Under the pieces are notes generated by a model that did not search any database, was not told the DNA's origin, and worked only from the letters and a program-made list of their open reading frames with translations. Both the position numbers and the translations under genes were made by a program. Shown here piece after piece: positions 1 through 15,587 of a stretch of DNA of 64,000 bases (position 1 is the stretch's first letter; the number at the start of each line of letters is the position of its first letter). The stretch is taken from NCBI RefSeq assembly GCF_013170705.1, contig NZ_CP033334.1:3635501-3699500 (forward strand). The letters are read 5' to 3'. This DNA comes from Mesorhizobium loti (GTDB taxonomy: Bacteria > Pseudomonadota > Alphaproteobacteria > Rhizobiales > Rhizobiaceae).

Positions 1-587
1 CCTACAACACCGAATCCGACTGGGTCCATCATCCCAAGAACAAGACCGAGGAAGGTTTCGAGGAATGCCGCAAGGTGATCGCGGACCTCGCGCAGACGGC
101 TTATGACCACGGCGCGGTCTTCCTGCTCGAAACCTATGTCAACAACGTCGTCGGCTCGGTCGAGGAGACGGTGAGGATGTTCGCGCAGGTCGACCACCCC
201 GGCCTTGGCTTGCTGATGGACCCCACCAATTATTTCGAGACGCACAACATCGACAGGATGGACCAGATCCTGAACCAGGTGTTCGACACGCTGACCGACA
301 AGATCAAGATCGCGCACGCCAAGGACGTCAAGCGCTCGGGCGATGACAAGTCGGAGAAGCACGCCGATATCGGCGACGCCGATGCGATGGAAAGCCATAC
401 GTTCCGCGGCGTCGGCGAGATCGAACTGCCGGCGCCGGGCCTCGGCTCGCTGAACTATGATCTCTATCTCAAGCGGCTGGCTGAGAAGCATCCGAACATC
501 CCGGTGATCATCGAGCATCTGTCGGAGGACGACGTGCCGCGCGCCAAGAAATTCCTCGACGGGAAATTCCGCGCCAACGGCCTTTGA
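1..587 (+). CDS. sugar phosphate isomerase/epimerase-like protein (5' partial)
   Basis: The reading frame is open from base 3 to the stop at 585-587, so the true start lies before the window; the GTG at 75 is internal. The visible roughly 194 residues fit the C-terminal part of a TIM-barrel xylose-isomerase-like protein: MDPTNYFE and KIKIAHAKDVK resemble metal-site strands of this superfamily, and IPVIIEHLSEDDVPRAKKFL is a typical last strand and helix. These enzymes isomerise or epimerise sugars, inososes or ketose phosphates, but the substrate cannot be read from sequence. It sits 56 bases upstream of a ribose-type binding-protein gene on the same strand and is probably the first visible gene of that catabolic operon. 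Confidence 0.8.
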   Translation, partial: YNTESDWVHHPKNKTEEGFEECRKVIADLAQTAYDHGAVFLLETYVNNVVGSVEETVRMFAQVDHPGLGLLMDPTNYFETHNIDRMDQILNQVFDTLTDKIKIAHAKDVKRSGDDKSEKHADIGDADAMESHTFRGVGEIELPAPGLGSLNYDLYLKRLAEKHPNIPVIIEHLSEDDVPRAKKFLDGKFRANGL

Positions 588-643
588 TGATTGTTTCGCG
601 CTGCCGGTTCGCGGCCGCTCGGCTCCAAACAAGGGAGGAAAGA

Positions 644-1588
644 ATGTTGAAATTCGCTTGGAAATTGGCGGCCGCGGCGACGGTGCTCGCCGGCGTGGCC
701 CTCGGCACGACGGCGCAGGCGGCGGAGGGCCAGAAGACCTTTTATCTGCTGTCGCATGGCGGCCCCTCGGATGCGTTCTGGATCGACTGGAACGCCGGCG
801 CGACCAAGGCCTGCGACCAGCTCAAGGTGACCTGCAAGATCTCTTTCAGCGGTGGCGACATGGCGGCGCAGAAAGAGGCGTTCAACTCGGCGCTCGCCGC
901 CAAGCCCGACGGTATCGCCACAACCTCGGCGCAGCCGGGGCTTTGGACAGAGGAGGTCAAGGCTGCAAAGGCTGCCGGCATCCCGATCGTGTTCTTCAAC
1001 ACCGACGATCCGGCGACGGGCCGCCAGGCCTATGTCGGCGCCGACCTCAAGGAAGCCGGCGCGGTCTGGGCCAAGTACCTGGTCGACCACAAGATGGTGA
1101 AGCAGGGCGACAAGGTGTTCCTGCCGGTGGAAGTTCCCGGCGCCAGTTATCAGCAGTTGGAGACGGAAGGCATCGCAAGCGTTTTCGATCCGTTGGGGAT
1201 CAAATACGACGTCGTCGATTGCGGCACCGATCCGGCCGGCATCATCGCCAAGATGACCGACTATATGGTGGCCAACAATCCGCCGGCGATCATCGCGCTC
1301 GGCGATTCCGTGGCGGCCAGCGTGAAGCGGGTGTTCGACGGTGCCGGCGTGCCGGCCGGCAAGATCCCGGTCGTCGGCTGGGGCAATTCCAAGGAGACGG
1401 CGCAGGCCGTCAAGGACGGCTTCGTCAACGCTGCCGCCTGGCAGTACCCGTCGGCGCAAGGCTTCATGCCGGTGGCGTTGCTCGGGCTGGCCGCATCGGG
1501 TGAGCCGATCGGCTACGACATCCACACTTTCGGTCTCTACGACGCCTCCAGCGTCGACCCGATCCTGAAGCTCTACGACAAGAAATGA
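644..1588 (+). CDS. ribose-type ABC transporter substrate-binding protein
   Basis: 314 residues, RbsB-like periplasmic binding protein (PBP1 fold). A Sec signal peptide is evident: positive MLKFAWK start, hydrophobic core, and an AQA-AEG cleavage region near residues 24-27. The start at 644 is chosen because a strong GGGAGGA (633-639) precedes it; an earlier in-frame start at 584 would place the signal peptide internally. The mature protein shows the family pattern SGGDMAAQKEAFNSAL, then VFFNTDDP and VGADLKEAG in the first lobe. It is presumably the substrate receptor of the permease and ATPase encoded next. A perfect stem-loop follows the stop codon, which may raise its mRNA level over the downstream genes. 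Substrate unknown; a sugar or polyol is most likely. Confidence 0.9.
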   Translation: MLKFAWKLAAAATVLAGVALGTTAQAAEGQKTFYLLSHGGPSDAFWIDWNAGATKACDQLKVTCKISFSGGDMAAQKEAFNSALAAKPDGIATTSAQPGLWTEEVKAAKAAGIPIVFFNTDDPATGRQAYVGADLKEAGAVWAKYLVDHKMVKQGDKVFLPVEVPGASYQQLETEGIASVFDPLGIKYDVVDCGTDPAGIIAKMTDYMVANNPPAIIALGDSVAASVKRVFDGAGVPAGKIPVVGWGNSKETAQAVKDGFVNAAAWQYPSAQGFMPVALLGLAASGEPIGYDIHTFGLYDASSVDPILKLYDKK

Positions 1589-1597
1589 TAAAAGCAG

Positions 1598-1626
1598 CGC
1601 CCGCTGCGAAAGCGGCGGGCGTCTTT
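1598..1626 (+). terminator. intra-operon stem-loop after binding-protein gene
   Basis: A 10-bp stem (1598-1607 with 1612-1621, one G-U pair) is closed by a GAAA tetraloop and followed by TCTTT. It lies 9 bases after the binding-protein stop and just before the permease start at 1632. It could be a leaky terminator or a 3'-end stabiliser that makes binding protein in excess. Confidence 0.6.
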
Positions 1627-1631
1627 CAAGC

Positions 1632-2651
1632 ATGGTTCAAACAGTCATGACGATCGCCGCAGAAGACGAGATGCCTGTCGGGAAACGCAGATCGAGCCTG
1701 ATACGCTCGCCGCAATTTTCCTCGCTCGTCATCCTCATTGTCCTGCTGGCGGTGTTCGCCATCGCCGACCGCAACTTCCTGTCGCCGCTCAACATCTCCA
1801 ACATGATGGCGTTCCTGCCCGAGCTCGGCATCATCGCGCTCGGCATGACGCTGCTTCTGACGGCGGGCGAATTCGACCTGTCCGTCGGCGCGGTGTTCGG
1901 ACTGGCGCCGGTGGTGGTGATGCTGCTGGTGCAGAACGGGGGATTGGATATCGGCATCGCCCTTCTGGCCGGCCTTCTCCTGTGCATCGCGATCGGCGCC
2001 ATCAACGGGCTGATCGTCACCAAGATCGGCATTTCGTCTTTCCTGGTGACGCTGTCGATGCTGCTCGTCGTACGCGGCGCGGCCCTCTACATCACGCAAG
2101 GGTTCCCGCTGAAATCCTGGGACCAGCCCGGCTTTTTCGTGACCCTGCTGGCGGGCAGCTTCAATGTCGGTTCGTTCCGCTTCTATACCTCGCTGTGGTG
2201 GTTCATCGGCCTGTCGCTGTTTGCCATCTACATCCTGCGCTACGCCAAGCTCGGCAATTGGATCAGCGCCATCGGCTCCAACCGCAACGCGGCGGTGGCG
2301 CGCGGCGTGCCGGCGGACGCCGTCAAGATCTGGCTGTTCATCGCGACCTCGGTGCTGGCCGGTCTTGCCGGCATGATCAGCGCCTTCCGCATCTCCGCCG
2401 CTTCGCCGGTGGCCGGTACCGGCTACGAACTGGAAGTCATTGCCATGGTGGTGGTCGGCGGCACGGCGCTGACCGGCGGGCGCGGCACCATCCTCGGTAC
2501 CATCGTCGGCGCGCTGATGCTGCGCGCCATCCGCAACGGCATCGTGCTGATCGGCGTGCCGGGGCTGGCCTACAACATCTTCGTCGGCCTCATCATCCTC
2601 GCCATGCTGATCCTGCACGCTTTGCTGCAGAAGAACGCCGCAAGGAGCTGA
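1632..2651 (+). CDS. ribose-type ABC transporter permease
   Basis: 339 residues of the RbsC/BPD_transp_2 family, an inner-membrane protein with about 8-10 hydrophobic segments. Typical motifs are LGIIALGMTLLLTAGEFDLSVG (mid N-terminal half) and GTGYELEVIAMVVVGGTALTGGRGTILG near the C-terminus, the region that contacts the ATPase. Its stop is two bases before the ATPase start at 2654, so the two are cotranslated. It would form the channel for the ligand bound by the protein encoded at 644. Confidence 0.92.
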   Translation: MVQTVMTIAAEDEMPVGKRRSSLIRSPQFSSLVILIVLLAVFAIADRNFLSPLNISNMMAFLPELGIIALGMTLLLTAGEFDLSVGAVFGLAPVVVMLLVQNGGLDIGIALLAGLLLCIAIGAINGLIVTKIGISSFLVTLSMLLVVRGAALYITQGFPLKSWDQPGFFVTLLAGSFNVGSFRFYTSLWWFIGLSLFAIYILRYAKLGNWISAIGSNRNAAVARGVPADAVKIWLFIATSVLAGLAGMISAFRISAASPVAGTGYELEVIAMVVVGGTALTGGRGTILGTIVGALMLRAIRNGIVLIGVPGLAYNIFVGLIILAMLILHALLQKNAARS

Positions 2652-2653
2652 TA

Positions 2654-3430
2654 ATGGACGTGCTTCGGCTGCAGAATTTGCAGAAATCCTTCGGCAGCGT
2701 GCGTGCGCTGAAGAATGCCTCGCTGACGCTCAGGGAAGGCGAAGTGGTGGCGCTGCTCGGCGACAATGGCGCCGGCAAATCGACGCTGATCAAGGCGATC
2801 TCGGGCGTGTTCCCCGTCGACCGAGGCGACATCTATGTGCGCGGCGAAAAGGTCTCGATCCGCTCGACCCGCGATGCGATGGACCTCGGCATCGAGACCA
2901 TCCATCAGGACACGTCGCTGGCGCCGGATCTCAGCATCGCGCGCAATCTTTTCCTCGGTCGCGAGCCGGTCAATTTCGGCTGGCTCGGCGTGTTCGCGCC
3001 GCTCGATCTCGCCAAGCTGCGCAAGGCCGCTTCCGAACTGCTCAAGCGCGTCGGCATCTCGAAGAAACTCGACGCCGATGCGCTGGTTTCGACGCTGTCG
3101 GGCGGCGAACGCCAGTCGATCGCCATATCGCGCGCCATGCAGTTCGCCGCCAAGGTGATCATCCTCGACGAGCCGACCAACAATCTCGGCGTCGAGGAGA
3201 CCCATGGCGTGCTGCGCTTCGTCAAGGAAGTGCGCGACGCCGGCCATTCGGTGCTTTTGATCACCCACAACATCCACCACGTGTTCCAGGTCGCCGACCG
3301 CATCATCGTCATGCGGCGCGGCGAAATCGTCGCCGAACAGATCGTCGCCGACACCGACCTCTTGACCGTGGAAAGCATCATCACCGGCGCCGACATGTCG
3401 GCCTTGCTCAAAGAGGCGAGGGCAAAGTGA
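2654..3430 (+). CDS. ribose-type ABC transporter ATP-binding protein (single domain)
   Basis: 258 residues with Walker A GDNGAGKST (36-44), signature LSGGERQS, Walker B VIILDEPTNNLG and switch-region LLITHN. This is one nucleotide-binding domain, about half the length of RbsA or MglA, so it should work as a homodimer. The start at 2654 is placed by the two-base gap from the permease stop and the AAGGAG just upstream. The frame is open far upstream of this, but that stretch lies over the permease gene. Confidence 0.92.
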   Translation: MDVLRLQNLQKSFGSVRALKNASLTLREGEVVALLGDNGAGKSTLIKAISGVFPVDRGDIYVRGEKVSIRSTRDAMDLGIETIHQDTSLAPDLSIARNLFLGREPVNFGWLGVFAPLDLAKLRKAASELLKRVGISKKLDADALVSTLSGGERQSIAISRAMQFAAKVIILDEPTNNLGVEETHGVLRFVKEVRDAGHSVLLITHNIHHVFQVADRIIVMRRGEIVAEQIVADTDLLTVESIITGADMSALLKEARAK

Positions 3431-3440
3431 AGGGCGTCGC

Positions 3441-4622
3441 ATGGTAGAGCTTTACGGCAAGACGCTGTCGCGGAGGCAAGTGGCGGAGCGATCCGGCATG
3501 CTGTCGCAATTCGCCGGCGTGCGGCTGATGACGCTTGGCGACGGCGTGGAGCGCGGCATCCGCATGCTGGAGTTCCGCACCGGCTCGGGCCTGCGCTTCA
3601 CGGCGCTGGTCGACCGGGCGCTTGATATCGCCGATTGCGAGTTCAAGGGCCAGGCGATCGGCTGGCATTCGCCGAGCGGCTTCCGCCATCCGGGTCTGCA
3701 CGACTATGAGGGAGAGAGCGGACTCGCCTGGGCACGCTCCTTTTCCGGGCTGCTCGTCACTTGCGGCCTCGACCACATATTGGGCCGAGAAGAGGTGCCG
3801 GCCGAAAACTACAACTACCCCGGCAAGAGTACCGTCACCCATTCGCTGCACGGCCGCGTCGGCACCATTCCGGCACGGCTGACCGGCCATGGCGAGCGCT
3901 GGGAGGGCGACCGCTGCGTGCTGTGGGCCGAAGGCATCGTTCAGCAGTCGGCGGTGTTCGGCGAGGATCTGCATCTCATCCGTCGCATCGAAGCCGATGT
4001 CGGCGGCAACGAGATCCGGCTTTCAGACCGTGTCGTCAATCACGGCTTCAACCGCACGCCGCATATGTATTTCTACCACATCAATGTCAGCCATCCCCTG
4101 CTCGACCAGGGTTCGCGCTATCTCGCGCCGATCCGCGACGTGGTGTGGGCCGGTCATGCCGGCGAGCGCTACAAGGCGCAGAAGGTCGGATATCGCACAG
4201 CGCCGGAACCGCGAATGGGGTTCAGCGAGCAGGTCTGGCAGCATGAGATGGGCGCCGACGCAAAGGGCGAGGTTCCGGTGGCGGTGGTCAACGACCGCCT
4301 CGGACTCGGTTTCGAAGTGGTGACGCGCAAGGACCAGCTGCCTTGTGCCTATCAATGGCAGAATTTCCAGGCCGGGCAGTATGCGTTGGGCATGGAGCCT
4401 TCGACCCATCATGTGCTCGGCGATCTCGCCGCGCGCGACCGCGGCGAGATGATCTGGCTGGAGCATGGGGAAAGCCGGGCCTACGATGCGGTGTTCCGGG
4501 TGCTCGACGGTGCGGGTGAGATCGCGGCCGCCGAAAACCGGATCGCGGCCATCGCCCGGCAGCCGGAGCAGGATTACCCGCAGCCTTCCGGCAATTTCCC
4601 AAGACTGGCGGGCAGGGCATGA
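3441..4622 (+). CDS. DUF4432 / aldose-1-epimerase-like protein
   Basis: 393 residues of the DUF4432 family, a galactose-mutarotase-like beta-sandwich. Seen directly: RFTALVDRALDIADCEFKG, a GLLVTCGLDHI segment, a SLHGRVGTIPA block, RMYFYHINVSHPLL-like FYHINV and a late QWQNFQAGQYALGMEPSTHH segment, all characteristic of the family. Family members are thought to anomerise or epimerise sugars, but few have been tested. It begins 10 bases after the ATPase stop and so belongs to the importer operon, which supports a sugar-like substrate. The exact reaction is unknown. Confidence 0.8.
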   Translation: MVELYGKTLSRRQVAERSGMLSQFAGVRLMTLGDGVERGIRMLEFRTGSGLRFTALVDRALDIADCEFKGQAIGWHSPSGFRHPGLHDYEGESGLAWARSFSGLLVTCGLDHILGREEVPAENYNYPGKSTVTHSLHGRVGTIPARLTGHGERWEGDRCVLWAEGIVQQSAVFGEDLHLIRRIEADVGGNEIRLSDRVVNHGFNRTPHMYFYHINVSHPLLDQGSRYLAPIRDVVWAGHAGERYKAQKVGYRTAPEPRMGFSEQVWQHEMGADAKGEVPVAVVNDRLGLGFEVVTRKDQLPCAYQWQNFQAGQYALGMEPSTHHVLGDLAARDRGEMIWLEHGESRAYDAVFRVLDGAGEIAAAENRIAAIARQPEQDYPQPSGNFPRLAGRA

Positions 4623-4698
4623 GCGCTACATTTATCCAAAGCGAGCCTTCCGGCCGGCGGACCGGATTGCCAGCGGTGCATGACGATTGGAGGTCGAT

Positions 4699-5790
4699 GT
4701 GACGACGATGGCAAAAAAGCGCGATTACAGCCTGGTCGGCGAAAGCACACGCAGGGCGATCGAGACCGGCCTGGCCTCGGCCGAGTGGTACCACACCGAC
4801 GTGCCGCGCAAGGCGATGAAGGAACTGATGCAGCGCTCCGATGGCCCGGCGATCCGCGACACGGTGATCTGGCTCGCCGCGATCCTGGGTTCGGCCGCCG
4901 GCATCGTCTGGTTCTGGGGCACTTGGTGGGTGGTGCCGTTCCTGTTCGTCTATGGCGTGCTCTACGGCTCGTCGAGCGATTCGCGCTGGCACGAATGCGG
5001 CCACGGCACGGCCTTCCGCACGCGCTGGATGAACGATGTCGTCTACCACATCGCCTCCTTCATGCTGATGCGCAATCCCGTGCAATGGCGCTGGAGCCAT
5101 GCCCGCCACCATACCGACACCATCATTGTCGGCCGCGACGCCGAGATCGCCGTGATGCGTCCGCCGGATTTGTTGAAGGCGGCGCTCGCCTTCACCGGCA
5201 TTCTCGATTTCCGCTATTCGCTGCCGACGCTGGTGCGCCAGGCCTTCGGCACGCTGTCCGCGGAGGAGAAGAGCTACATCCCCGAAATGGAACAGCACAA
5301 GGCCGTGGTCGCCGCCCGATGGCACGTGGCCATATATCTCGCGACGATCGTTCTTGCGATCGCGCTGAGGTCATGGATACCGCTGGTGCTGATCGGCCTG
5401 CCGCGCCTTTACGGCACCTGGCACATGGTGACGACCGGCCTGCTGCAGCATATCGGCCTTGCCGACAATGTCGTCGACCACCGGCTCAACACGCGCACCG
5501 TCTACATGAACCCAATCAGCCGGTTCATCTACTGGAACATGAATTACCATGTCGAGCACCACATGTTCCCCATGGTGCCGTATCACGCGCTGCCCAGGCT
5601 GCACGAGCTGATCAAGCACGATCTGCCTGAGCCGAACCCGTCGATGTGGCATGCCTATCGCGAGGTCTGGCCGGTCCTGCTCAGGCAGCTGAAATACGAG
5701 GATTTCTACCTCAAGCGCGAATTGCCGCCGACGGCCAGGCCCTATCGCGGCGAGTTCCACGAGGTCGATATGTCGGCGGCCGCCGAATAA
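4699..5790 (+). CDS. fatty-acid-desaturase-like membrane di-iron oxygenase
   Basis: 363 residues. Three histidine boxes of the membrane desaturase/hydroxylase superfamily are present: HECGH (about 98-102), HARHH (about 134-138) and HVEHH (about 284-288), with hydrophobic segments at about 57-90 and 205-240. The GTG at 4699 is preferred because GGAGG (4689-4693) sits five bases upstream; ATG 4708 is possible. The next gene encodes a Rieske ferredoxin that is a natural electron donor. Being inside a sugar importer operon, with no fatty-acid genes near, it is more likely to hydroxylate or desaturate the imported compound than a lipid. That is inference. Confidence 0.85.
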   Translation: MTTMAKKRDYSLVGESTRRAIETGLASAEWYHTDVPRKAMKELMQRSDGPAIRDTVIWLAAILGSAAGIVWFWGTWWVVPFLFVYGVLYGSSSDSRWHECGHGTAFRTRWMNDVVYHIASFMLMRNPVQWRWSHARHHTDTIIVGRDAEIAVMRPPDLLKAALAFTGILDFRYSLPTLVRQAFGTLSAEEKSYIPEMEQHKAVVAARWHVAIYLATIVLAIALRSWIPLVLIGLPRLYGTWHMVTTGLLQHIGLADNVVDHRLNTRTVYMNPISRFIYWNMNYHVEHHMFPMVPYHALPRLHELIKHDLPEPNPSMWHAYREVWPVLLRQLKYEDFYLKRELPPTARPYRGEFHEVDMSAAAE

Positions 5791-5820
5791 CGATCGCGAG
5801 TGTTGGCAGGAGACTGAAAG

Positions 5821-6132
<312 letters not shown>

Positions 6133-6181
6133 CGCGCGGCAACCGACCCAGCACGTGGCAAGCAACAGAGGGGATGTTTTA

Positions 6182-6985
6182 ATGAGCCGAAAGAGACCGA
6201 CCGTCGCCGATCTGCGCGCCATGAAGGGCAAGCGCCAACTGACCATGCTGCGGGTGCTGACGCTCGACGAGGCGGAGGCCGCCGAACGGGCAGGGGTCGA
6301 CATCGTCTCGGTGCCGCCCGAACTGGTGCTTAACCCGCAATATCGCGATGCCGCGCCCAGCCTGTTCACCATGCCGGGCGAGAATTTCTTCGAGATCGGC
6401 ACGGCGGATGATTTCCTGCGCTGGGCGTTCCGGCTCTACAAGGCCGGTGCCGACGCCGTCTATTGCAGCGCCGGCCATGCCACGATCAAACGGATGGCCG
6501 ACGATGCCATTCCCGTCATCGGTCATGTCGGCCTCATTCCATCCCGCGCCACCTGGACCGGCGGCTTCAAGGCGGTCGGCAAGACCGCCGATACCGCTCT
6601 TCAGGTCTTCGAAGCGGTGAAGCAACTGGAGGCCGCCGGCGCCATCGGCGCGGAGATCGAGGTGGTGCCGGTGGAGGTTGCCAAGGCAATCTCGGAGCGG
6701 ACCTCGCTGATCATGCTGTCGATGGGGGCGGGCACCGGCTGCGATGCGCAATATCTGTTCGCCGAGGATATCCTTGGCCAGAACCGGGGTCACATGCCGC
6801 GCCACTCCAAGGTCTATCGCAATTTCGCCGCCGAATATGACCGGCTGCAGGCGGAGCGGGTGGCGGCATTCTCCGAATATGTCGCCGACGTCAACAGTGG
6901 CGCCTATCCGGAGGACAGGCACATCGTGCACATGGACCCGGCCGAGCTCAGCCTGTTCATGAAAAAGGTAGACGCAAGGAGCTGA
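6182..6985 (+). CDS. divergent PanB-like (ketopantoate hydroxymethyltransferase fold) protein
   Basis: 267 residues. The second half clearly matches PanB: VIGHVGLIPSRATWTGGFK, an EAAGAIGAEIEVVPVEVAKAIS block and GAGTGCDAQ. By-eye comparison with E. coli PanB suggests that key residues of the first half are changed: the GDSLG metal-site Asp is replaced in VSVPPEL, the ADLPF Asp is not conserved, and the KIEGG lysine and glutamate become YCSAG. The glutamate of the ECVP motif is kept (IEVVP). It is therefore unlikely to make ketopantoate, and no panC is adjacent. AGAGGGG-type ribosome site precedes ATG 6182. Its stop abuts the stop of the convergent HutH-like gene. Confidence 0.75.
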   Translation: MSRKRPTVADLRAMKGKRQLTMLRVLTLDEAEAAERAGVDIVSVPPELVLNPQYRDAAPSLFTMPGENFFEIGTADDFLRWAFRLYKAGADAVYCSAGHATIKRMADDAIPVIGHVGLIPSRATWTGGFKAVGKTADTALQVFEAVKQLEAAGAIGAEIEVVPVEVAKAISERTSLIMLSMGAGTGCDAQYLFAEDILGQNRGHMPRHSKVYRNFAAEYDRLQAERVAAFSEYVADVNSGAYPEDRHIVHMDPAELSLFMKKVDARS

Positions 6986-8494
6986 TTATTCGGCTTCCTG
7001 GCTGACCATTGCCGCGCCTTGCCACGCTCCATCGGCGAGCATGGCGTGGAGCAGCTCGGCGTCGGTTCCCAGCGGCCGGTCGTCTTTCAGCATCGATACA
7101 TGCGCGCGCACCGCCGCATAGATCGAGCCAGTGCGTGGCCCCAGCGTCGACCCTTCACGCAGGTCGACGGCCTGGGCGGCAGCCATCAGCTCGAAGGCTA
7201 TCAGCCGCCGCCATAGCGCGATCATCCCGGCGCATTTCGCAACGGCGAGGGGGGACTGGGTCGCATGGTCCTCGACACCTTCCGATACCGGCAGGAAGTC
7301 GAGCATCACAGGATTGGCCTTGTGGCGAATGGCGGCCAGGATCGATGTCGCCGTCTTCTGCAGGGGCACGAAGCCGGCCGACGCGCCGCCGACCGGCGAC
7401 AGATATTTCGCCAGGCCGTTGCGTCCCGAGCCGGTGAGCTGAATGAAGCGGGCGACGCTCGCGGCGGCGCATTGCGCGATCGCCAGGCTGAGTGTCTCGA
7501 AAGCGAGCGAAAGGGCGGCCGTGTGGAAATTGCCGGTCGACAGCACCAGTTCGTCATCGCCCAGCACCAGCGGGTTGTCGGCGGCGGCATTAAGCTCGAT
7601 CTCGACGGCACGTTTAGCCTGGCCGATCGCCTCGATCAGCGCGCCGTGGATCGACGGCATGCAGCGGATCGACAGCGGATCCTGCAGGGTGGTCGGCGCC
7701 GGCGGCTCGTCGCGGGCCAGCAGATCATGCAATATCTTGGCGGCTTCCTGTTGGCCGGCCGCCGGGCGTGCCATGTGCAGGCGCGGATCGAGGATGGTGC
7801 GGTTGGCGCCAAAACCTTCCATGGTCAGCGCGCCGGCCTGCTGCTGCTGGGCAAGCGCCGACAGCGCGTCAGTTACCGCAAGCGCGCCGCAGCCGGAGGA
7901 CACCGCCGATGCGTTGATCAGCGACAGCCCGTCCTTGGGTGCCAGGCTGATGGGCGCGAGGCGGCCCATCATCAGCGCCTTGGCCGCCGGCATGCGACGG
8001 CCCTGATAGTCGACTTCGCCTTCGCCGATCAGCACACGGGCAAGCGCGGTCATCAGCACGAGGTCGCCGGCGCCGATCGAGCCGAGTGACGGCATGACCG
8101 GATGGACACCGGCATTGAGCACGTCGACCAGAGCGACGAAGACAGCGGGAGAGAGGCCGGAGCCGCCGGCCGACAGCATCGCCAGGCGAGCGACCATTGT
8201 TGCCCGCACCGCCTCAACCGGCAGCGCCTCTCCGACCGCGCCGCTGCGCCCTTCCAGCAATTGCCGCTGGAAGGCACTGGCGTCGCCCTCGACCGCCGTG
8301 CCGAGATTGGCGCCGAGCCCGGTGTTCAGCCCGTATATGGGCTGGCCGGAGGCAGCGGCCTGGTCGAGCACTTTGCGTGCCTTGTCCAGCCTGCCGAGGA
8401 CATCGGGGCCGATCTCCACCTTGCGGGCTCCGCGGGCGACGGTGGCGATATCGCCGACACTGACGGCGGCTCCGGTGAGGACGAGCGCGCTCAT
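6986..8494 (-). CDS. HutH/PAL-fold ammonia-lyase-like protein lacking the MIO serine
   Basis: 502 residues, full length for the histidine/phenylalanine ammonia-lyase family. Conserved elements: YGLNTGLG (54-61, catalytic Tyr), INAS, SIRCMP with its Arg, ADNPLV, STGNFH and EDHATQ. The segment that normally reads GSxGASGDL is GSIGAGDL (138-145), one residue short, so the Ala-Ser-Gly triad that cyclises into the MIO cofactor has lost its serine; I re-read this on the nucleotide sequence. YSLRC is LSIRC. It overlaps the upstream cyclodeaminase-like gene by four bases (ATGA), showing translational coupling. No hutU, hutI or hutG is nearby, so a role in histidine degradation is unlikely. Confidence 0.85.
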   Translation of the reverse strand: MSALVLTGAAVSVGDIATVARGARKVEIGPDVLGRLDKARKVLDQAAASGQPIYGLNTGLGANLGTAVEGDASAFQRQLLEGRSGAVGEALPVEAVRATMVARLAMLSAGGSGLSPAVFVALVDVLNAGVHPVMPSLGSIGAGDLVLMTALARVLIGEGEVDYQGRRMPAAKALMMGRLAPISLAPKDGLSLINASAVSSGCGALAVTDALSALAQQQQAGALTMEGFGANRTILDPRLHMARPAAGQQEAAKILHDLLARDEPPAPTTLQDPLSIRCMPSIHGALIEAIGQAKRAVEIELNAAADNPLVLGDDELVLSTGNFHTAALSLAFETLSLAIAQCAAASVARFIQLTGSGRNGLAKYLSPVGGASAGFVPLQKTATSILAAIRHKANPVMLDFLPVSEGVEDHATQSPLAVAKCAGMIALWRRLIAFELMAAAQAVDLREGSTLGPRTGSIYAAVRAHVSMLKDDRPLGTDAELLHAMLADGAWQGAAMVSQEAE

Positions 8495-9492
8495 GCGAAA
8501 CGCAGCCTCTGGCCGATGCCTTTTTCTCCTGCCTTGGCCAGCATCGCCTTGCCGAGCGCAATGTCGGACAGCGACAGGCCGCGATGCCAGAACAGGATGG
8601 TCTCGTCGTCGCTTTGCCGGCCCGGCTTGAGGCCGGCGGCGATCTGGCCAAGCTCGGCATGCAGCGTCTTTTCGCTGAGCCGTCCGGTCTCGACATGGGC
8701 GCGCAGCGAACCGAACTTGCCGCCCTTGCACTGGCCCCAGTCGTCGACCACCATCTTCTGCATGATGTCGGTCAGCGACAGCTCCACCGCGCTCATCGTG
8801 CCATAGGGTACGACCAGGGCGCCGGGCTTGATCCATTCGGTCTTGAGCAGCGGCTGAGGCTCCGGCAGCCGCGAGGCCTCGACAACGATGTCGGCGCCTT
8901 CGATGCAGCTCTTCCAGTCGGCGACCGCCGTCACTTTCTTGCCGAGGTCGCCGGAGAGCTTGGCGGCAAAGCCGTCCCGGCTTTCCGGGCGGCGCGAATG
9001 GACGCGGATCTCGTCGAAGTCGAAGAGATGGTCAAGCAGGCGCACGTTCCAATAGGCGGTGCCGCGCGCGCCGATATGGGCGAGCACCTTGGAGTTCTTG
9101 CGTGCCAGATGCTTCGCGCCGATCGCTGTGACGGCGCCGGTGCGCATGTCGGTGATGACGGTGGCATCGAGGATGGCACGCGGCGTGCCGGTGCGCGGAT
9201 CGAACAGGTTCAGAATGCCGAATTCAGAGGGCAGGCCATGCAGATAGTTGTCGACGTAGTCGCCGACGATCTTCACGCCCGCCGCGTCGAGTGGCGCCAC
9301 ATAGCCGCGCAGCACATTGAAATGGCCGTGGAAGGATGGGTCCGGTTCCAGGTGAACACGCGGTTCGATCACGGTCTGGCCCTTGCCCTGAGCGACCAGA
9401 CCGGCCTCGACGGCGGCAATGATTTCGCCGTCGGTCATGGCAAGCGCATCGATGTCTAGAGCATTGAGATAGTCGATGTAGATGGGCTTCAT
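8491..9492 (-). CDS. ornithine cyclodeaminase / mu-crystallin family protein
   Basis: 333 residues, the normal length for the family. N-terminal ligand region includes EPRVHLEPD and HFNVLRGYV; the Rossmann part has AIGAKHLARKNSKV and IGARGTAYWN followed by an acidic-basic VHSRRPES strand end; IVVEASR closes the nucleotide site. Relatives are NAD(P)-dependent ornithine or lysine cyclodeaminases, ketimine reductases, alanine dehydrogenases or opine-type enzymes, so the call is at family level only. It is the first gene of a two-gene minus-strand unit with the HutH-like gene, divergent from the DHA2 transporter at 9613. Confidence 0.88.
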   Translation of the reverse strand: MKPIYIDYLNALDIDALAMTDGEIIAAVEAGLVAQGKGQTVIEPRVHLEPDPSFHGHFNVLRGYVAPLDAAGVKIVGDYVDNYLHGLPSEFGILNLFDPRTGTPRAILDATVITDMRTGAVTAIGAKHLARKNSKVLAHIGARGTAYWNVRLLDHLFDFDEIRVHSRRPESRDGFAAKLSGDLGKKVTAVADWKSCIEGADIVVEASRLPEPQPLLKTEWIKPGALVVPYGTMSAVELSLTDIMQKMVVDDWGQCKGGKFGSLRAHVETGRLSEKTLHAELGQIAAGLKPGRQSDDETILFWHRGLSLSDIALGKAMLAKAGEKGIGQRLRFA

Positions 9493-11315: not shown

Positions 11316-12302
11316 ATGAACACGACCGGCTGGCTAAATCCCAGGAGCCTGAATCAGGAAGGCATTGTCTTTGCCATTGCCGTGGTGCTGTTCGTTGCGG
11401 CGGCAATGGGGCTGCCGGGCTTTATCGATCCCAACAACCTCGTCGCCATTGTCCGCTCGGTGTCGGTGCTGGGCATATTGGCGCTCGGCATGGCTGTCGT
11501 CATCATCGGCCGCGGTATCGACCTGTCCGCGGTGGCGATCATGGCGATGTCGGTCGCCTGGTATCTGCAGCTGCTCAACACGGGGACGTCGGACGGGCTG
11601 GCCTTCGCCTATGTGCTGGCCGGCGTGCTCGCCATCGGGCTGCTCAACGGCTTTCTCGTCGCCTATGCCGACGTGCCGGCGATTTTCGTGACGCTGGCCA
11701 CCGGCTCCTTCGTCTTCGGCTATGTGCGCTCGCAACTGATCACGCAGGATGCGGTGCCGGTGCCGCAGGGACATTGGGTCGAACTGCTCGGCGGCCTGCG
11801 CTTCCTCGATATCCCGATCGAGGTGTTCGTCTTCGCGGGCCTCGCCTTCCTGTTCTTCCTCTTCCTGCGTTACACCAAATGGGGGCGCTACATCTATTTT
11901 GCCGGCGACAACCCGGTCGCGGCCCGCAACATCGGCATCCCGGTGCGGCCGATGCTGGTGCTGCGCTACGTGCTGTCTGCCTTCGTTGCCCTGATCGCCG
12001 GCCTGCTGACGGCGGCCAGCCTGCATTCGATCAACACGCGTGTCGTCAATTCGACGCTGCTCTACGACATCGTGCTGGTGGCTGTGATCGGCGGGATCGG
12101 CCTCTCGGGCGGGCGGGGCGGGGTGCGCAACGTGCTGGTTGGAGCGGCGCTGATCGGCATCCTTCTCAACGCCATGACCATCATCGACATTCCGCTGCTC
12201 TACCAGAACCTGATCAAGGCAGCGATCCTGCTCGGCGCCATCATCGTCGACGGCATCATCAATCCACGCGACGAACAGACCGCGCAACAAGGCGACATTT
12301 AG
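11316..12302 (+). CDS. ribose-type ABC transporter permease
   Basis: 328 residues of the RbsC family with multiple membrane segments. Seen: ALGMAVVIIGRGIDLSAVA, where most homologues have GGIDLSVG, and a late VIGGIGLSGGRGGVRN block. It is the first gene of the operon that runs to 18129 and is one of two permeases there, so the importer core may be a heterodimer with the permease half of the protein encoded at 13464. Regulation by a LacI protein is suggested by the palindrome 15 bases upstream. Confidence 0.9.
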   Translation: MNTTGWLNPRSLNQEGIVFAIAVVLFVAAAMGLPGFIDPNNLVAIVRSVSVLGILALGMAVVIIGRGIDLSAVAIMAMSVAWYLQLLNTGTSDGLAFAYVLAGVLAIGLLNGFLVAYADVPAIFVTLATGSFVFGYVRSQLITQDAVPVPQGHWVELLGGLRFLDIPIEVFVFAGLAFLFFLFLRYTKWGRYIYFAGDNPVAARNIGIPVRPMLVLRYVLSAFVALIAGLLTAASLHSINTRVVNSTLLYDIVLVAVIGGIGLSGGRGGVRNVLVGAALIGILLNAMTIIDIPLLYQNLIKAAILLGAIIVDGIINPRDEQTAQQGDI

Positions 12303-12362: not shown

Positions 12363-13388
12363 ATGAAACTGATCAGAACACTGATGGCCGCCGCCACGGC
12401 GCTGGCCGTTACCGCCTTCGTGGCGCCGACCTTCGCCGCCGATGATCCGGGTCCGGCCGCCTATGCGCAGGCGCTCAAGGGCAAGCGCGTCATGCTGGTG
12501 CCGCTGGCGATGGGCTTCGACCTGGCGCAGGGCTGGGCGCATTACCTGAAGAAGGAAGTCGAGGCCTGGGGCGGCGTGTTCGAGACTCGCGATCCGAACT
12601 GGGTGGTCGATGCGGGCGCGCAGGCTATCACCGACGCTATCTCGTCCGACACCAGGCCCGACGTGCTGATCATCCATGCGCCGGACCTCAACTCCTATTC
12701 CAAGCTGATGAAGAAGGCGCAGGCCGCCGGCACCTATGTGCTTCTGGTCGACAACCCCGCCAACTTCCCGGCCGATGCCTTCGTCGGCAGCGACTGGGAC
12801 AGGCTCGGCCAGCTCGAGGCCGAAGCGGCGATCAAGGGCTGCGGCGAAAACTCGTCGAAGAAGATCGGACTTGTGCAGGGCGACCAGGCGAACTCTTCCA
12901 GCCTCTATCAGTATGCCGGCATCATGAAGGTGCTGGACAAGCATCCTGACTTCAAGGTGGTGGCCAAGCCCGACTCCAACTGGGACGCGACGACCTCGCG
13001 CAACGTGACGACGACGATGCTGCAGCAGAACCCGGACATCTGCTCGATCATCGATTTCTGGGACGGTGACGCCACCGGCGCATCGGCCGCGATCCGAGAC
13101 GCCAAGCTCGACGGCAAGGTGTTCCTCGTCACCACCGGCGGCGGCGAGAAGGCGGCCGATTGCGACAAGCTGCAGGACGGCACCTATGGCGCCGTGGTGA
13201 TGACCGATCTCGCCCGCCAGTCGGGCGACATGAACGCCATCATCAAGTTCCTGCTGCAGAGCGGCCAGCCAGCCGGCACCTCGCACACCTATATCTATAC
13301 GCTCGAGAAGGCGACGACCAAGGCCGATCTCAAGCCCGACAGCTGCTGGGACCTGAAGGCGCTGCAGGCCGAAGCGGCGGCGAAATAA
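12363..13388 (+). CDS. ribose-type ABC transporter substrate-binding protein
   Basis: 341 residues, periplasmic. Signal peptide: MKLIRTLMAAATALAVTAFV with cleavage near FAA-DDP (about 25-27). The body has KRVMLVPLAMGFDLAQGWAHYLKKE, a VLIIHAPDLNS strand, VLLVDNP and VGSDWDRLGQLEAEA, matching the PBP1 sugar-binding fold. It follows the first permease by 60 bases and is followed by a strong stem-loop at 13415. Ligand unknown; the lactonase-like proteins in the same operon suggest a sugar acid, lactone or aldose. Confidence 0.9.
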   Translation: MKLIRTLMAAATALAVTAFVAPTFAADDPGPAAYAQALKGKRVMLVPLAMGFDLAQGWAHYLKKEVEAWGGVFETRDPNWVVDAGAQAITDAISSDTRPDVLIIHAPDLNSYSKLMKKAQAAGTYVLLVDNPANFPADAFVGSDWDRLGQLEAEAAIKGCGENSSKKIGLVQGDQANSSSLYQYAGIMKVLDKHPDFKVVAKPDSNWDATTSRNVTTTMLQQNPDICSIIDFWDGDATGASAAIRDAKLDGKVFLVTTGGGEKAADCDKLQDGTYGAVVMTDLARQSGDMNAIIKFLLQSGQPAGTSHTYIYTLEKATTKADLKPDSCWDLKALQAEAAAK

Positions 13389-13414
13389 ACCGCACGTTCC
13401 CGACAGATATCAAT

Positions 13415-13447
13415 GAGGTGGCCGGATTGCCCGGCCACCTCTTTCTC
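13415..13447 (+). terminator. intra-operon stem-loop after binding-protein gene
   Basis: An 11-bp perfect stem, GAGGTGGCCGG (13415-13425) with CCGGCCACCTC (13431-13441), five-base loop, followed by TTTCTC. It has terminator form but lies between genes that otherwise look cotranscribed, so partial read-through or mRNA 3'-end protection of the upstream binding-protein message is likely. Confidence 0.65.
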
Positions 13448-13463
13448 GTACCGCAGTGAGCCG

Positions 13464-15587
13464 ATGTCCTTTCGCGAACGCCTTCAGTCCTGGCGCTACA
13501 ATCTCGTGCCCGACCATCTGGTCGGCGAGATCCTGACCAAACGCTGGACCGACAATGCCATTCCGTTCCTGGCGCTGGTGGCAACGCTCGGCGTGTTCGG
13601 CTCGATCATTCCGGGTTTCTTCAAACTGACGTCGCTGCAGGAATCGACCCGCCAGCTCGGCGAATTCTCCATGGTGGTCACCGGCATGACGGTGGTGATG
13701 CTGGGCGGCGGCATCGATCTCTCGGTCGGCTCGATCTTCGCGCTGTCCTGCTTCTCGGCTGTCTACGTGTTCTTCATCCTCGAACAGTCGATCTGGCTGG
13801 CGCTGGCCGCTTCGCTCGCCACCGGGCTCGTCTTCGGCGCCATCAACGGCTACCTCGTCGGATATCTCAGGCTTCGCGCCTTCCTCACCACGCTGGTCAC
13901 CTTCATCTTCGGTCGGGCATTGTTCGACATCCTCGTCACCACCTACGCCGCCGACGTGCAGCTTTCGACCGCCACGTCGGATGTGCTGGATTTCATCGGC
14001 GACAGCACCTTCTGGGGCCTCTCGGTCTCGGTCTGGCTGGCGATCATCCTCGCCGTCGTCACCCATATCGCGCTGACGCGCTCGCGGCCGGGATGGCATG
14101 TGCTGGCTGTCGGCGGCTCCCGGCGCTCGGCGCACAATGCCGGCATCCGCGTGCGCCGCACCGTGTTCATGACCTATGTCTTCTCGGGTTTCTGCGCCTC
14201 GATCGGCGGTTTCCTCATTGCCTGCCGCTTGAGCGGTGCAGGGCCGGGCACCGGCCTCAACCTCGAGATCATGGCGCTGACGGCGGCGGTGGTCGGCGGC
14301 GTCAGCCTCGGCGGCGGGCGCGGCTCGGTGATCAAGGGACTGATGGGCGCCATCATCGTCTTGACCATGACCAACGGGCTGATCCGGCTGGGCTACGGCA
14401 CCGGCACCAACCAGATGGTGCTCGGCATCATGCTGGCGGTGGCGGTGACCATCGATATCCGCTGGCTGAAGAACCGCCACAAGGTGCTCAACGAAGTCTA
14501 TGTCGCGCCGGTCTATCTCAAGATGGGCGAGACACAGTCCGCGGTGCCGGGCTCCGGCACGCCTTACGAGCTCGACAACCGCCTGTCCGCGGCCGATCAT
14601 ATCGGGCTCGGTGAGCTGGAAGGGCCCGAGGATGTCATCCTCGACCGTGACGACAATCTCTATTGCGGCACCCGCCATGGCGAGATCGTCCGCTTCTTCG
14701 CGCCGGACTATGTGAAATCTGAAGTGTTTGCCCATATTGGCGGCTTTCCGCTGGGGCTCGCCTTCGACAAATCGGGCAATCTGATCAGCTGCGTCGGTGC
14801 CATGGGGCTTTATTCCGTTTCGCCGGACCGGGAGGTGAAACGCCTTTCGGCCGAGACGTCACGCTCCTGGACCTCGATCGTCGACGATGCACGGCTGCGC
14901 GATCCCAATGATTGCGACATCGCGCCGGATGGCCGCATCTATTTCACGGATTCAACGAAGCGCTACGACGCGCATGACTGGGCGCTGGACTCGATCGAGA
15001 ACCGCGCCACCGGGCGCCTGCTGGTCTACGACCCCAAGGACGGTTCGACGAAGACGCTGCTCGACGGCTATCGCTACACCAATGGTGTGTGCATGGCTCA
15101 TGACGGCAAGTCGCTGTTCTTCGCCGAAAGCTGGGCCTGCCGCGTGCATCGCTATTGGCTGGAAGGGCCGAAGGCCGGCACCGCCGAATGCGTCATCCGC
15201 GACATGCCGGGCTATCCCGACAACATCAACCGGGCGTCGGACGGCAATTACTGGATGGCGTGGCTGGGCATGCGCACGCCAAGCTTCGACCTGTCGCTGC
15301 GCCATCCCGACATGCGCAAGCGCATGACGCGGCGGCTGCCGCAGGACGAGTGGCTGTTCCCCAACATCAACACCGGCGGCGTGGTGAAATTCAACGAGAA
15401 GGGCGGGATCGTGGAGGCACTCGGCGACCTCACCGGCGATGCGCATCCGATGGTCACCTCGATGCGCGAGCACAAGGGATATCTTTTCGTCGGCGGCATC
15501 CTCAACAACCGCATCGGCCGCTACAGGATTTCGGGTGCCGACCCGAACTGGACCAGCCCCGCTTCCTATTGGGGAGCAAAGCCATGA
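13464..15587 (+). CDS. ABC transporter permease fused to an SMP-30/gluconolactonase-like domain
   Basis: 707 residues, about twice a normal permease. Residues 1 to about 345 are an RbsC-type permease (GMTVVMLGGGIDLSVGS, GGVSLGGGRGSVIKG). A linker at about 345-385 leads into a beta-propeller of SMP-30/strictosidine-synthase type: GPEDVILDRDDNLYCGTRHG, DPNDCDIAPDGRIYFTDST, RYTNGVCMAHDGKSLFFAES and a GYPDNINRASDGNYW block, which carry the family's metal-site type acidic residues. The frame is continuous with no stop, so the fusion is real in this sequence. ATG 13464 is preferred over an upstream start that would overlap the stem-loop. The last four bases overlap the next gene. Confidence 0.9.
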   Translation: MSFRERLQSWRYNLVPDHLVGEILTKRWTDNAIPFLALVATLGVFGSIIPGFFKLTSLQESTRQLGEFSMVVTGMTVVMLGGGIDLSVGSIFALSCFSAVYVFFILEQSIWLALAASLATGLVFGAINGYLVGYLRLRAFLTTLVTFIFGRALFDILVTTYAADVQLSTATSDVLDFIGDSTFWGLSVSVWLAIILAVVTHIALTRSRPGWHVLAVGGSRRSAHNAGIRVRRTVFMTYVFSGFCASIGGFLIACRLSGAGPGTGLNLEIMALTAAVVGGVSLGGGRGSVIKGLMGAIIVLTMTNGLIRLGYGTGTNQMVLGIMLAVAVTIDIRWLKNRHKVLNEVYVAPVYLKMGETQSAVPGSGTPYELDNRLSAADHIGLGELEGPEDVILDRDDNLYCGTRHGEIVRFFAPDYVKSEVFAHIGGFPLGLAFDKSGNLISCVGAMGLYSVSPDREVKRLSAETSRSWTSIVDDARLRDPNDCDIAPDGRIYFTDSTKRYDAHDWALDSIENRATGRLLVYDPKDGSTKTLLDGYRYTNGVCMAHDGKSLFFAESWACRVHRYWLEGPKAGTAECVIRDMPGYPDNINRASDGNYWMAWLGMRTPSFDLSLRHPDMRKRMTRRLPQDEWLFPNINTGGVVKFNEKGGIVEALGDLTGDAHPMVTSMREHKGYLFVGGILNNRIGRYRISGADPNWTSPASYWGAKP

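Follow-up and report, generated by a model that had tools for sequence, protein, structure and literature searches.

A conserved Mesorhizobium loti operon joining a MocD-type oxygenase to a PanB-like protein: a candidate O-demethylation route for methylated cyclitols or sugars

Introduction

What might a bacterium do with a ribose-type sugar importer, a desaturase-like oxygenase, and a relative of the ketopantoate hydroxymethyltransferase PanB encoded in one row, with a HutH-like protein and an ornithine-cyclodeaminase (OCD)-like protein converging on them? The question is raised by the first 9,492 nucleotides (nt) of a 64,000-nt stretch of Mesorhizobium loti (hereafter the window; G000:C1:3635501-3699500), which lies in a 6.87 Mb genome of one contig. 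The original prediction placed all ten genes in one undescribed pathway, in which a sugar-like compound is imported, oxygenated, and then cleaved. Profile matches (Pfam and NCBIfam) bore out the position and family of all ten genes (Table 1), and the stops of the converging genes do abut (6985 and 6986). We consider it somewhat probable that the forward-strand genes (module A) form an operon for the O-demethylation of a methylated cyclitol or sugar, in which the PanB-like protein passes the one-carbon (C1) unit to tetrahydrofolate (THF), and that the reverse-strand pair (module B) is separate.

Results

Module A is a conserved operon

Module A in the window is the downstream half of an operon beginning about 7 kb upstream. 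The co-directional genes start 7.3 kb before window base 1 (upstream locus L005). Reading by eye identified there a second ATP-binding cassette (ABC) importer (binding protein, two permeases, and two ATPases) and a divergent LacI-like regulator (L005:3366-4394), and model scanning a Gfo/Idh/MocA dehydrogenase, with inositol 2-dehydrogenase as its top model (92.4 of 355 bits). The window start cuts the TIM-barrel gene, which in full occupies L005:11673-12587 and whose product matches the IolO model weakly (25.5 of 300 bits). From this gene to that of the PanB-like protein, 2-85 nt separate neighboring genes.

To assess conservation, the PanB-like family was used to retrieve loci, and the best 80 of 457 candidates were taken. 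Nearly all are from Mesorhizobium, the nearest relatives of the window by this gene among those 80, so that synteny was tested in close relatives only. Upstream counts refer to the 74 loci whose upstream DNA spans 8.5 kb or more and downstream counts to the 74 with at least 4.5 kb downstream; gaps within the set are distances between tblastn matches, not gene ends. The forward-strand genes are kept together: a MocD gene accompanies the PanB-like gene at all 80 loci and a MocE gene at 74 of them. The Gfo/Idh/MocA dehydrogenase and TIM-barrel genes were each present in 74 of 74 upstream-complete loci, the ribose-type importer (binding protein, permease, and ATPase) in 42/74, and the DUF4432 gene in 54/74. 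Both of the latter were absent from 20 loci, in five examples of which the TIM-barrel and MocD matches lie 24-45 nt apart, indicating that the ribose-type importer and DUF4432 gene are optional. A PurU match followed 51-57 nt behind the PanB-like match in 14/74 loci. The co-occurrence of the module A genes was well above chance, and the proposal that the sugar-type import and oxygenation genes belong together is upheld by this conservation; for the forward-strand genes, the original prediction thus withstands its own refuting condition, a lack of joint conservation among relatives. Further, at two loci of another genus (L145 and L146), an importer 47-55% identical to that of the window adjoins MocDE and PanB-like genes in a different arrangement, which supports the link between importer and oxygenase.

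The MocD-type protein carries three His boxes (HECGH, HARHH, and HVEHH), and MocE has the CxH...CxxH motif in the form CTH...CPKH. The profile libraries used hold no MocD-specific model; the two genes are adjacent, and PF00487 and TIGR02377 both score above their cutoffs, the latter with 184.4 bits (cutoff 136.15).

The PanB-like protein lacks the PanB site

The predicted model of the PanB-like protein has the PanB fold, with isocitrate-lyase/PEP-mutase superfamily enzymes coming after PanB in the list of structure matches. Against TIGR00222 the protein scored 104.9 bits, short of the cutoff (207.55) that two other genes of the same genome, the true PanBs, do reach. We take D45, D84, K112, and E114 of PanB to be residues of the metal and keto-acid site. 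D84, K112, and E114 are replaced in the aligned PanB-like protein, E181 is kept, and the GDS motif, of which D45 is part, lies opposite an alignment gap, with no aligned counterpart. Given the missed cutoff and the loss of these residues, we rejected an active PanB. Within the PanB-like family, other acidic residues (E30, D91, E158, E160, D188, and D196) are invariant, so that a different metal site is possible. When the two true PanBs of this genome were used as the root of a tree, a fully supported branch held all 31 PanB-like rows on one side, and among 22 labelled rows the type of partner oxygenase switched at least six times. The existing source label for the family is 3-methyl-2-oxobutanoate hydroxymethyltransferase. 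The same genome also has a second, divergent PanB-like gene (G000:C1:3221304-3222083; L136), near which are a D-ribose pyranase-family gene, a PfkB-like gene, and a ribose-type importer, and no tested oxygenase was found there.

PanB-like genes adjoin several types of oxygenase

Genome samples drawn at the level of family, class, and phylum were searched with E-value limits of our own setting. Among 247 genomes of the window's family, 63 carried a PanB-like gene, 68 a MocE gene, 57 both, and 173 neither, and a MocE gene lay within 4 kb of 63 of the 84 PanB-like loci. The neighborhood sample comprised 33 genomes picked, from the class and phylum samples, for carrying PanB-like genes. Here, MocE or a desaturase was found within 4 kb of 29/44 PanB-like loci vs 0/30 true PanB loci. 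All 45 MocE matches but only 36 desaturase matches, picked by eye, entered this count, which can only lower the PanB-like figure; for the true PanB control, desaturase and MocE matches were taken only on contigs carrying a true PanB. In the reverse direction, 20 of the 45 MocE genes had no PanB-like gene within 4 kb.

Clusters in Rhizobium johnstonii 3841, S. meliloti RCAM1115, and M. huakuii 7653R contain LacI, MocD, MocE, an FAD-type reductase (in the MocF position), and the PanB-like protein, and that of M. huakuii has purU and folD in addition. The partner oxygenase is not always MocD. In a hand tally of 33 fetched PanB-like loci (L120-L136 and L141-L156), at least one oxygenase of the types named here, or MocD, was present in 25. 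FA_hydroxylase proteins adjoin the PanB-like gene in L126, L152, L153, and L155 and lie further up the gene row in L161/L122 and L164/L150, having surfaced in L122 and L150 only once the loci were extended; the relevant side of L151 fell outside the fetched DNA. Rieske ring-hydroxylating oxygenases stand beside it in L124 and L125 (more weakly in L130 and L148), and PhyH proteins in L127 (more weakly in L133 and L135). Pfam confirmed the oxygenase neighbors in L120 (PhyH), L124, L126, L127, and L164, the rest being assigned by similarity to these. Within the window's class, a 1.6 Mb genome (G221; L126, L127, and L128) has four PanB-like genes, and two 1.4 Mb genomes (G090 and G319; L124 and L125) have one each; the PanB-like genes of these small genomes adjoin desaturase-type, Rieske, FA_hydroxylase, or PhyH oxygenases.

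Module B is separable from module A

The reverse-strand genes overlap by 4 nt (8491-8494), and the identical overlap is annotated in Rhizobium acidisoli (L196). For the HutH-like protein, the closest PDB sequence is an ergothionase (6s7j; 5.6e-70, 240 bits). Its loop is not of the ASG form, and S-x-G-A-G-D was found in 120/120 among the relatives listed. With the Ala-Ser-Gly triad that forms 4-methylideneimidazole-5-one (MIO) missing, an MIO ammonia-lyase (HutH, PAL, or TAL) was rejected; the proteins named "histidine ammonia-lyase" here that lack the triad need re-annotation. The OCD-family protein is closest in the PDB to alanine dehydrogenase (1omo), which is also its top NCBIfam match (185.3 of 409.15 bits); none of the 13 models listed was matched above its cutoff, and the protein did not reach that of the ornithine cyclodeaminase model. 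A second MIO-less HutH-like paralog (G000:C1:6035916-6037382; L157), 41% identical and with the loop GSIGAAD, is encoded elsewhere in the genome.

The convergent pair was present in 66 of the 74 downstream-complete loci and absent from the other 8. Outside Mesorhizobium, the HutH-like gene adjoins an OCD match in 3 of 11 loci of an order sample (L179, loop GSIGTSD; L181 and L183, both ASIGAGD), and a 38.5% identical HutH-like fragment lies at the edge of L188. Three Rhizobium plasmid loci (L196, L197, and L198; loops GSIGAGD, GSIGAAD, and GSIGAGD) combine OCD and HutH-like genes with "glycine betaine" ABC importers, and in L165 (G054) the pair is near a Rieske oxygenase, two DAO+GCV_T proteins, GcvP, GcvH, and GcvT. 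No match to the pair was found in the moc-type clusters L006-L008 or in the 33 hand-tallied PanB-like loci, so module B is not tied to module A. The annotations of the three moc-type clusters and the three plasmid loci are described by their collection as incomplete; these six loci were checked by tblastn. Some module A loci lack the pair, which elsewhere stands beside betaine-type importers with neither the oxygenase nor the PanB-like gene, and the original prediction of one shared pathway did not survive; we rejected a single pathway for all ten genes, retaining it as a rival below. A betaine is the simplest reading of the module B substrate, and module B is probably a betaine breakdown system of its own.

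Table 1. Genes of modules A and B (window coordinates). Gene calls made by script are heuristic where loci are GC-rich; the starts at 644, 2654, 4708, 6182, and 8494 were refined by reading frame.
Module	Product	Position	Strand	Match or feature
A	TIM-barrel protein, xylose-isomerase-like (IolE/IolO/MocC-type), C-terminal part	3..587	+	PF01261, 54.8 bits
A	Periplasmic sugar-binding protein, ribose-type (CUT2) ABC importer	644..1588	+	PF13407
A	ABC permease	1632..2651	+	PF02653
A	ABC ATPase, single-domain	2654..3430	+	PF00005
A	DUF4432 protein	3441..4622	+	PF14486, 311.1 bits
A	MocD-type membrane di-iron oxygenase, fatty-acid-desaturase fold	4708..5790	+	PF00487
A	MocE family Rieske 2Fe-2S ferredoxin, putative electron donor	5821..6132	+	TIGR02377
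A	PanB-like protein, proposed C1/THF enzyme	6182..6985	+	PanB fold (predicted), site residues lost
B	HutH-fold lyase (Lyase_aromatic), ergothionase-like, without MIO triad	6986..8494	-	GSIGAGD loop
B	OCD/alanine-dehydrogenase-family NAD(P) enzyme	8491..9492	-	PF02423

Further into the window is a 724-amino-acid open reading frame (13413-15587) that by eye fuses a sugar-ABC permease to an SMP-30/gluconolactonase-like domain, preceded by genes for another permease (11316-12302) and a binding protein (12363-13388).

Discussion

A proposed route for module A

On our reading, the ABC importers would take up a methylated cyclitol or sugar, and the Gfo/Idh/MocA dehydrogenase and TIM-barrel protein, together with the DUF4432 protein where present, would oxidize or isomerize the ring. 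The DUF4432 protein, which we take to be aldose-1-epimerase-like, is a probable mutarotase. The MocD-type oxygenase, a predicted demethylase receiving electrons via MocE, would hydroxylate the O-methyl group to give a hemiacetal; the PanB-like protein would bind THF and capture the formaldehyde-level carbon as methylene-THF, so that free formaldehyde would not build up; and FolD and PurU would convert the methylene-THF carbon to formate. Module B, for its part, probably eliminates an amine from a betaine-like amino acid by an MIO-free mechanism of the ergothionase type.

Methyl-inositols such as pinitol and ononitol are the leading candidate substrates. Pointers to cyclitols are (i) the precedent of the rhizopine moc genes, (ii) iol-type genes near other PanB-like genes, and (iii) the presence of both compounds in nodules. 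Regarding (ii), around the PanB-like gene of one genome (G177) lie genes for an IolG-like dehydrogenase (268.6 of 540 bits) and an IolC-like PfkB+DUF2090 protein; genes for a KduI/IolB-family protein and for PurU are there too, separated by a 651-amino-acid gene outside the scan, and L120 likewise has a KduI/IolB-family protein. Regarding (iii), pinitol and ononitol accumulate in Lotus/legume nodules, as passages of PMC8730688 state.

Several observations weigh against the demethylation reading. No MocF gene was seen beside the window's MocDE. A LacI-MocD-MocE-MocF site exists in the same genome outside the window (G000:C1 about 533250-537200; L168:7255-11200), where the MocF match shares 83% identity with the M. 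huakuii reductase and no PanB-like gene was found nearby; the window's MocDE must draw its reductase from elsewhere, probably from this MocF gene, and one site might complement the other. At six of the 80 loci, no intact MocE stands between MocD and the PanB-like gene (no match in L018, L045, L053, L067, and L075, and a broken one in L022), and another MocE may serve them. In the family sample, 6/63 genomes with a PanB-like gene had no MocE match and 11/68 with MocE no PanB-like match, and the relatedness of the sampled genomes makes our Fisher p-values too small, overstating independence. By the hand tally, one of the 33 PanB-like loci shows MocE only, and seven (L121, at a contig end, L129, L131, L132, L134, L136, and L156) have no tested oxygenase, having been screened with our own query set, partly with Pfam, and not gene by gene. 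Further, the Rieske oxygenase and PhyH calls at L130, L133, L135, and L148 come from matches of 25-30% identity to a single query, PurU or FolD stands beside a minority of PanB-like loci, and the upstream dehydrogenase falls so far below the IolG cutoff that the substrate could equally well be a methyl sugar or a methyl-inositol.

Alternative readings

The retro-aldol or ammonia-lyase cleavage of the original prediction finds the residues needed for each missing from the PanB-like and HutH-like proteins. The PanB-like protein might nevertheless still perform aldol-type C-C chemistry, with a keto-sugar or keto-acid product of the oxygenase undergoing retro-aldol cleavage or hydroxymethyl transfer; its fold and the superfamily next among its structure matches, the retained E181, the room that its own acidic residues leave for another metal site, and its sugar-type neighbors are all compatible with this, but the replacement of D84, K112, and E114, the unaligned GDS motif, and the company of oxygenases, MocE, PurU, and FolD make it unlikely. 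Equally unlikely, in our estimation, is that a ring carbon of the sugar is the site of hydroxylation or desaturation by MocDE, with the PanB-like protein acting as an unrelated hydrolase or isomerase and no C1 unit arising. FA_desaturase-fold enzymes do include many desaturases and C-H hydroxylases, and 60/74 loci have no PurU behind the PanB-like gene; however, PurU directly behind it in the remaining 14, PurU with FolD in M. huakuii, and PurU in G177 speak for C1 chemistry. Further, the PanB-like protein is retained as the type of oxygenase varies, and a shared product such as formaldehyde accounts for this better than a particular ring product.

Somewhat more doubtful still is a single pathway for a methylated nitrogen compound such as a betaine, in which a methylated amine released by the HutH-like protein would be demethylated by MocDE and the PanB-like protein, with folate as the acceptor. 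The modules are convergent neighbors at most Mesorhizobium loci, and in L165 the pair lies near one-carbon enzymes, its DAO+GCV_T proteins being of the dimethylglycine/sarcosine-dehydrogenase type. Yet the pair is absent from some module A loci, unmatched in the moc-type and hand-tallied clusters, and found without MocDE or PanB-like genes, while the module A importers are sugar-type and transcription of the two modules is convergent.

Extending the O-demethylation reading beyond this operon, we suggest more tentatively, as plausible but short of probable, that the PanB-like proteins are a new family of demethylase-coupled formaldehyde:THF transferases, recruited from PanB through loss of the metal and keto-acid site and serving as the interchangeable partner of several unrelated iron oxygenase families (MocD, FA_hydroxylase, Rieske, and PhyH). 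They would act in the oxidative demethylation of O- or N-methyl groups throughout the window's class, presumably Alphaproteobacteria, small genomes included, and methylated plant cyclitols would gain a formaldehyde-free route into folate C1 metabolism. If the O-demethylation reading holds, MocD and MocE genes in clusters that are not rhizopine loci are explained, a family now labelled as a hydroxymethyltransferase is assigned a function, and formaldehyde avoidance in demethylating cells has an enzymatic answer.

Comparison with known systems

The top matches of the open-access literature contained neither a PanB-like demethylase partner nor a description of bacterial methyl-inositol demethylation with folate capture, and the terms PanB, ketopantoate, desaturase, Rieske, and PurU are absent from the main text of a SAR11 one-carbon study (PMC3160333). 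By these matches the PanB-like folate partner seems to be a new element whose role is undescribed, and to this extent the original prediction of no named pathway stands; for the rest of module A it does not, since the rhizopine moc genes show that a named pathway resembling module A exists.

An ergothionase without MIO is described in passages of PMC13405746. Like that of Treponema denticola (6s7j), the HutH-like protein has a HutH fold without MIO and aligns without gaps at the loop, but it is only distantly related and is linked to an OCD-family dehydrogenase. With ketopantoate hydroxymethyltransferase PanB, the PanB-like protein has its fold in common but neither the TIGR00222 score nor the site residues. 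In porphyran-degrading bacteria, a cytochrome P450 oxidatively demethylates 6-O-methyl-D-galactose to the sugar and formaldehyde, as reported in PMC10033563. This system resembles our proposal in the oxidative O-demethylation of a methoxy sugar, but employs a P450 where module A has a di-iron desaturase-type oxygenase. We know of no PanB-like folate step in the P450 system.

The closest precedent is rhizopine catabolism. In this system, MocA belongs to the Gfo/Idh-type dehydrogenases, MocB is a binding protein, and MocC has a TIM-barrel fold. Passages of PMC10107442 and PMC5132102 give the catabolic genes as mocRABCDEF and MocDEF as a ferredoxin-oxygenase complex. The binding protein of the window has the rhizopine binding-protein model (NF052284) as its top NCBIfam match, but with 68.9 bits it misses the cutoff of 420, and we rejected rhizopine as the module A substrate on this ground. 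Another gene of the same genome, outside the window, does reach that cutoff (438.5 bits). No bona fide moc locus was found: seven places in 7 of 8 NF052284-positive genomes (G1100 left out) show no MocD, MocE, or PanB-like gene nearby, and one of them (L207) has a weak 28% match to MocF. Like the rhizopine (3-O-methyl-scyllo-inosamine) moc genes of Sinorhizobium meliloti L5-30 and Rhizobium leguminosarum, module A has a MocD oxygenase and a MocE ferredoxin, and the moc set likewise includes mocA, mocB, and mocC, acting on an inositol derivative. Unlike it, module A showed no MocR and no adjacent MocF, has by eye a LacI-like regulator, and adds the PanB-like protein, to which relatives add PurU and FolD.

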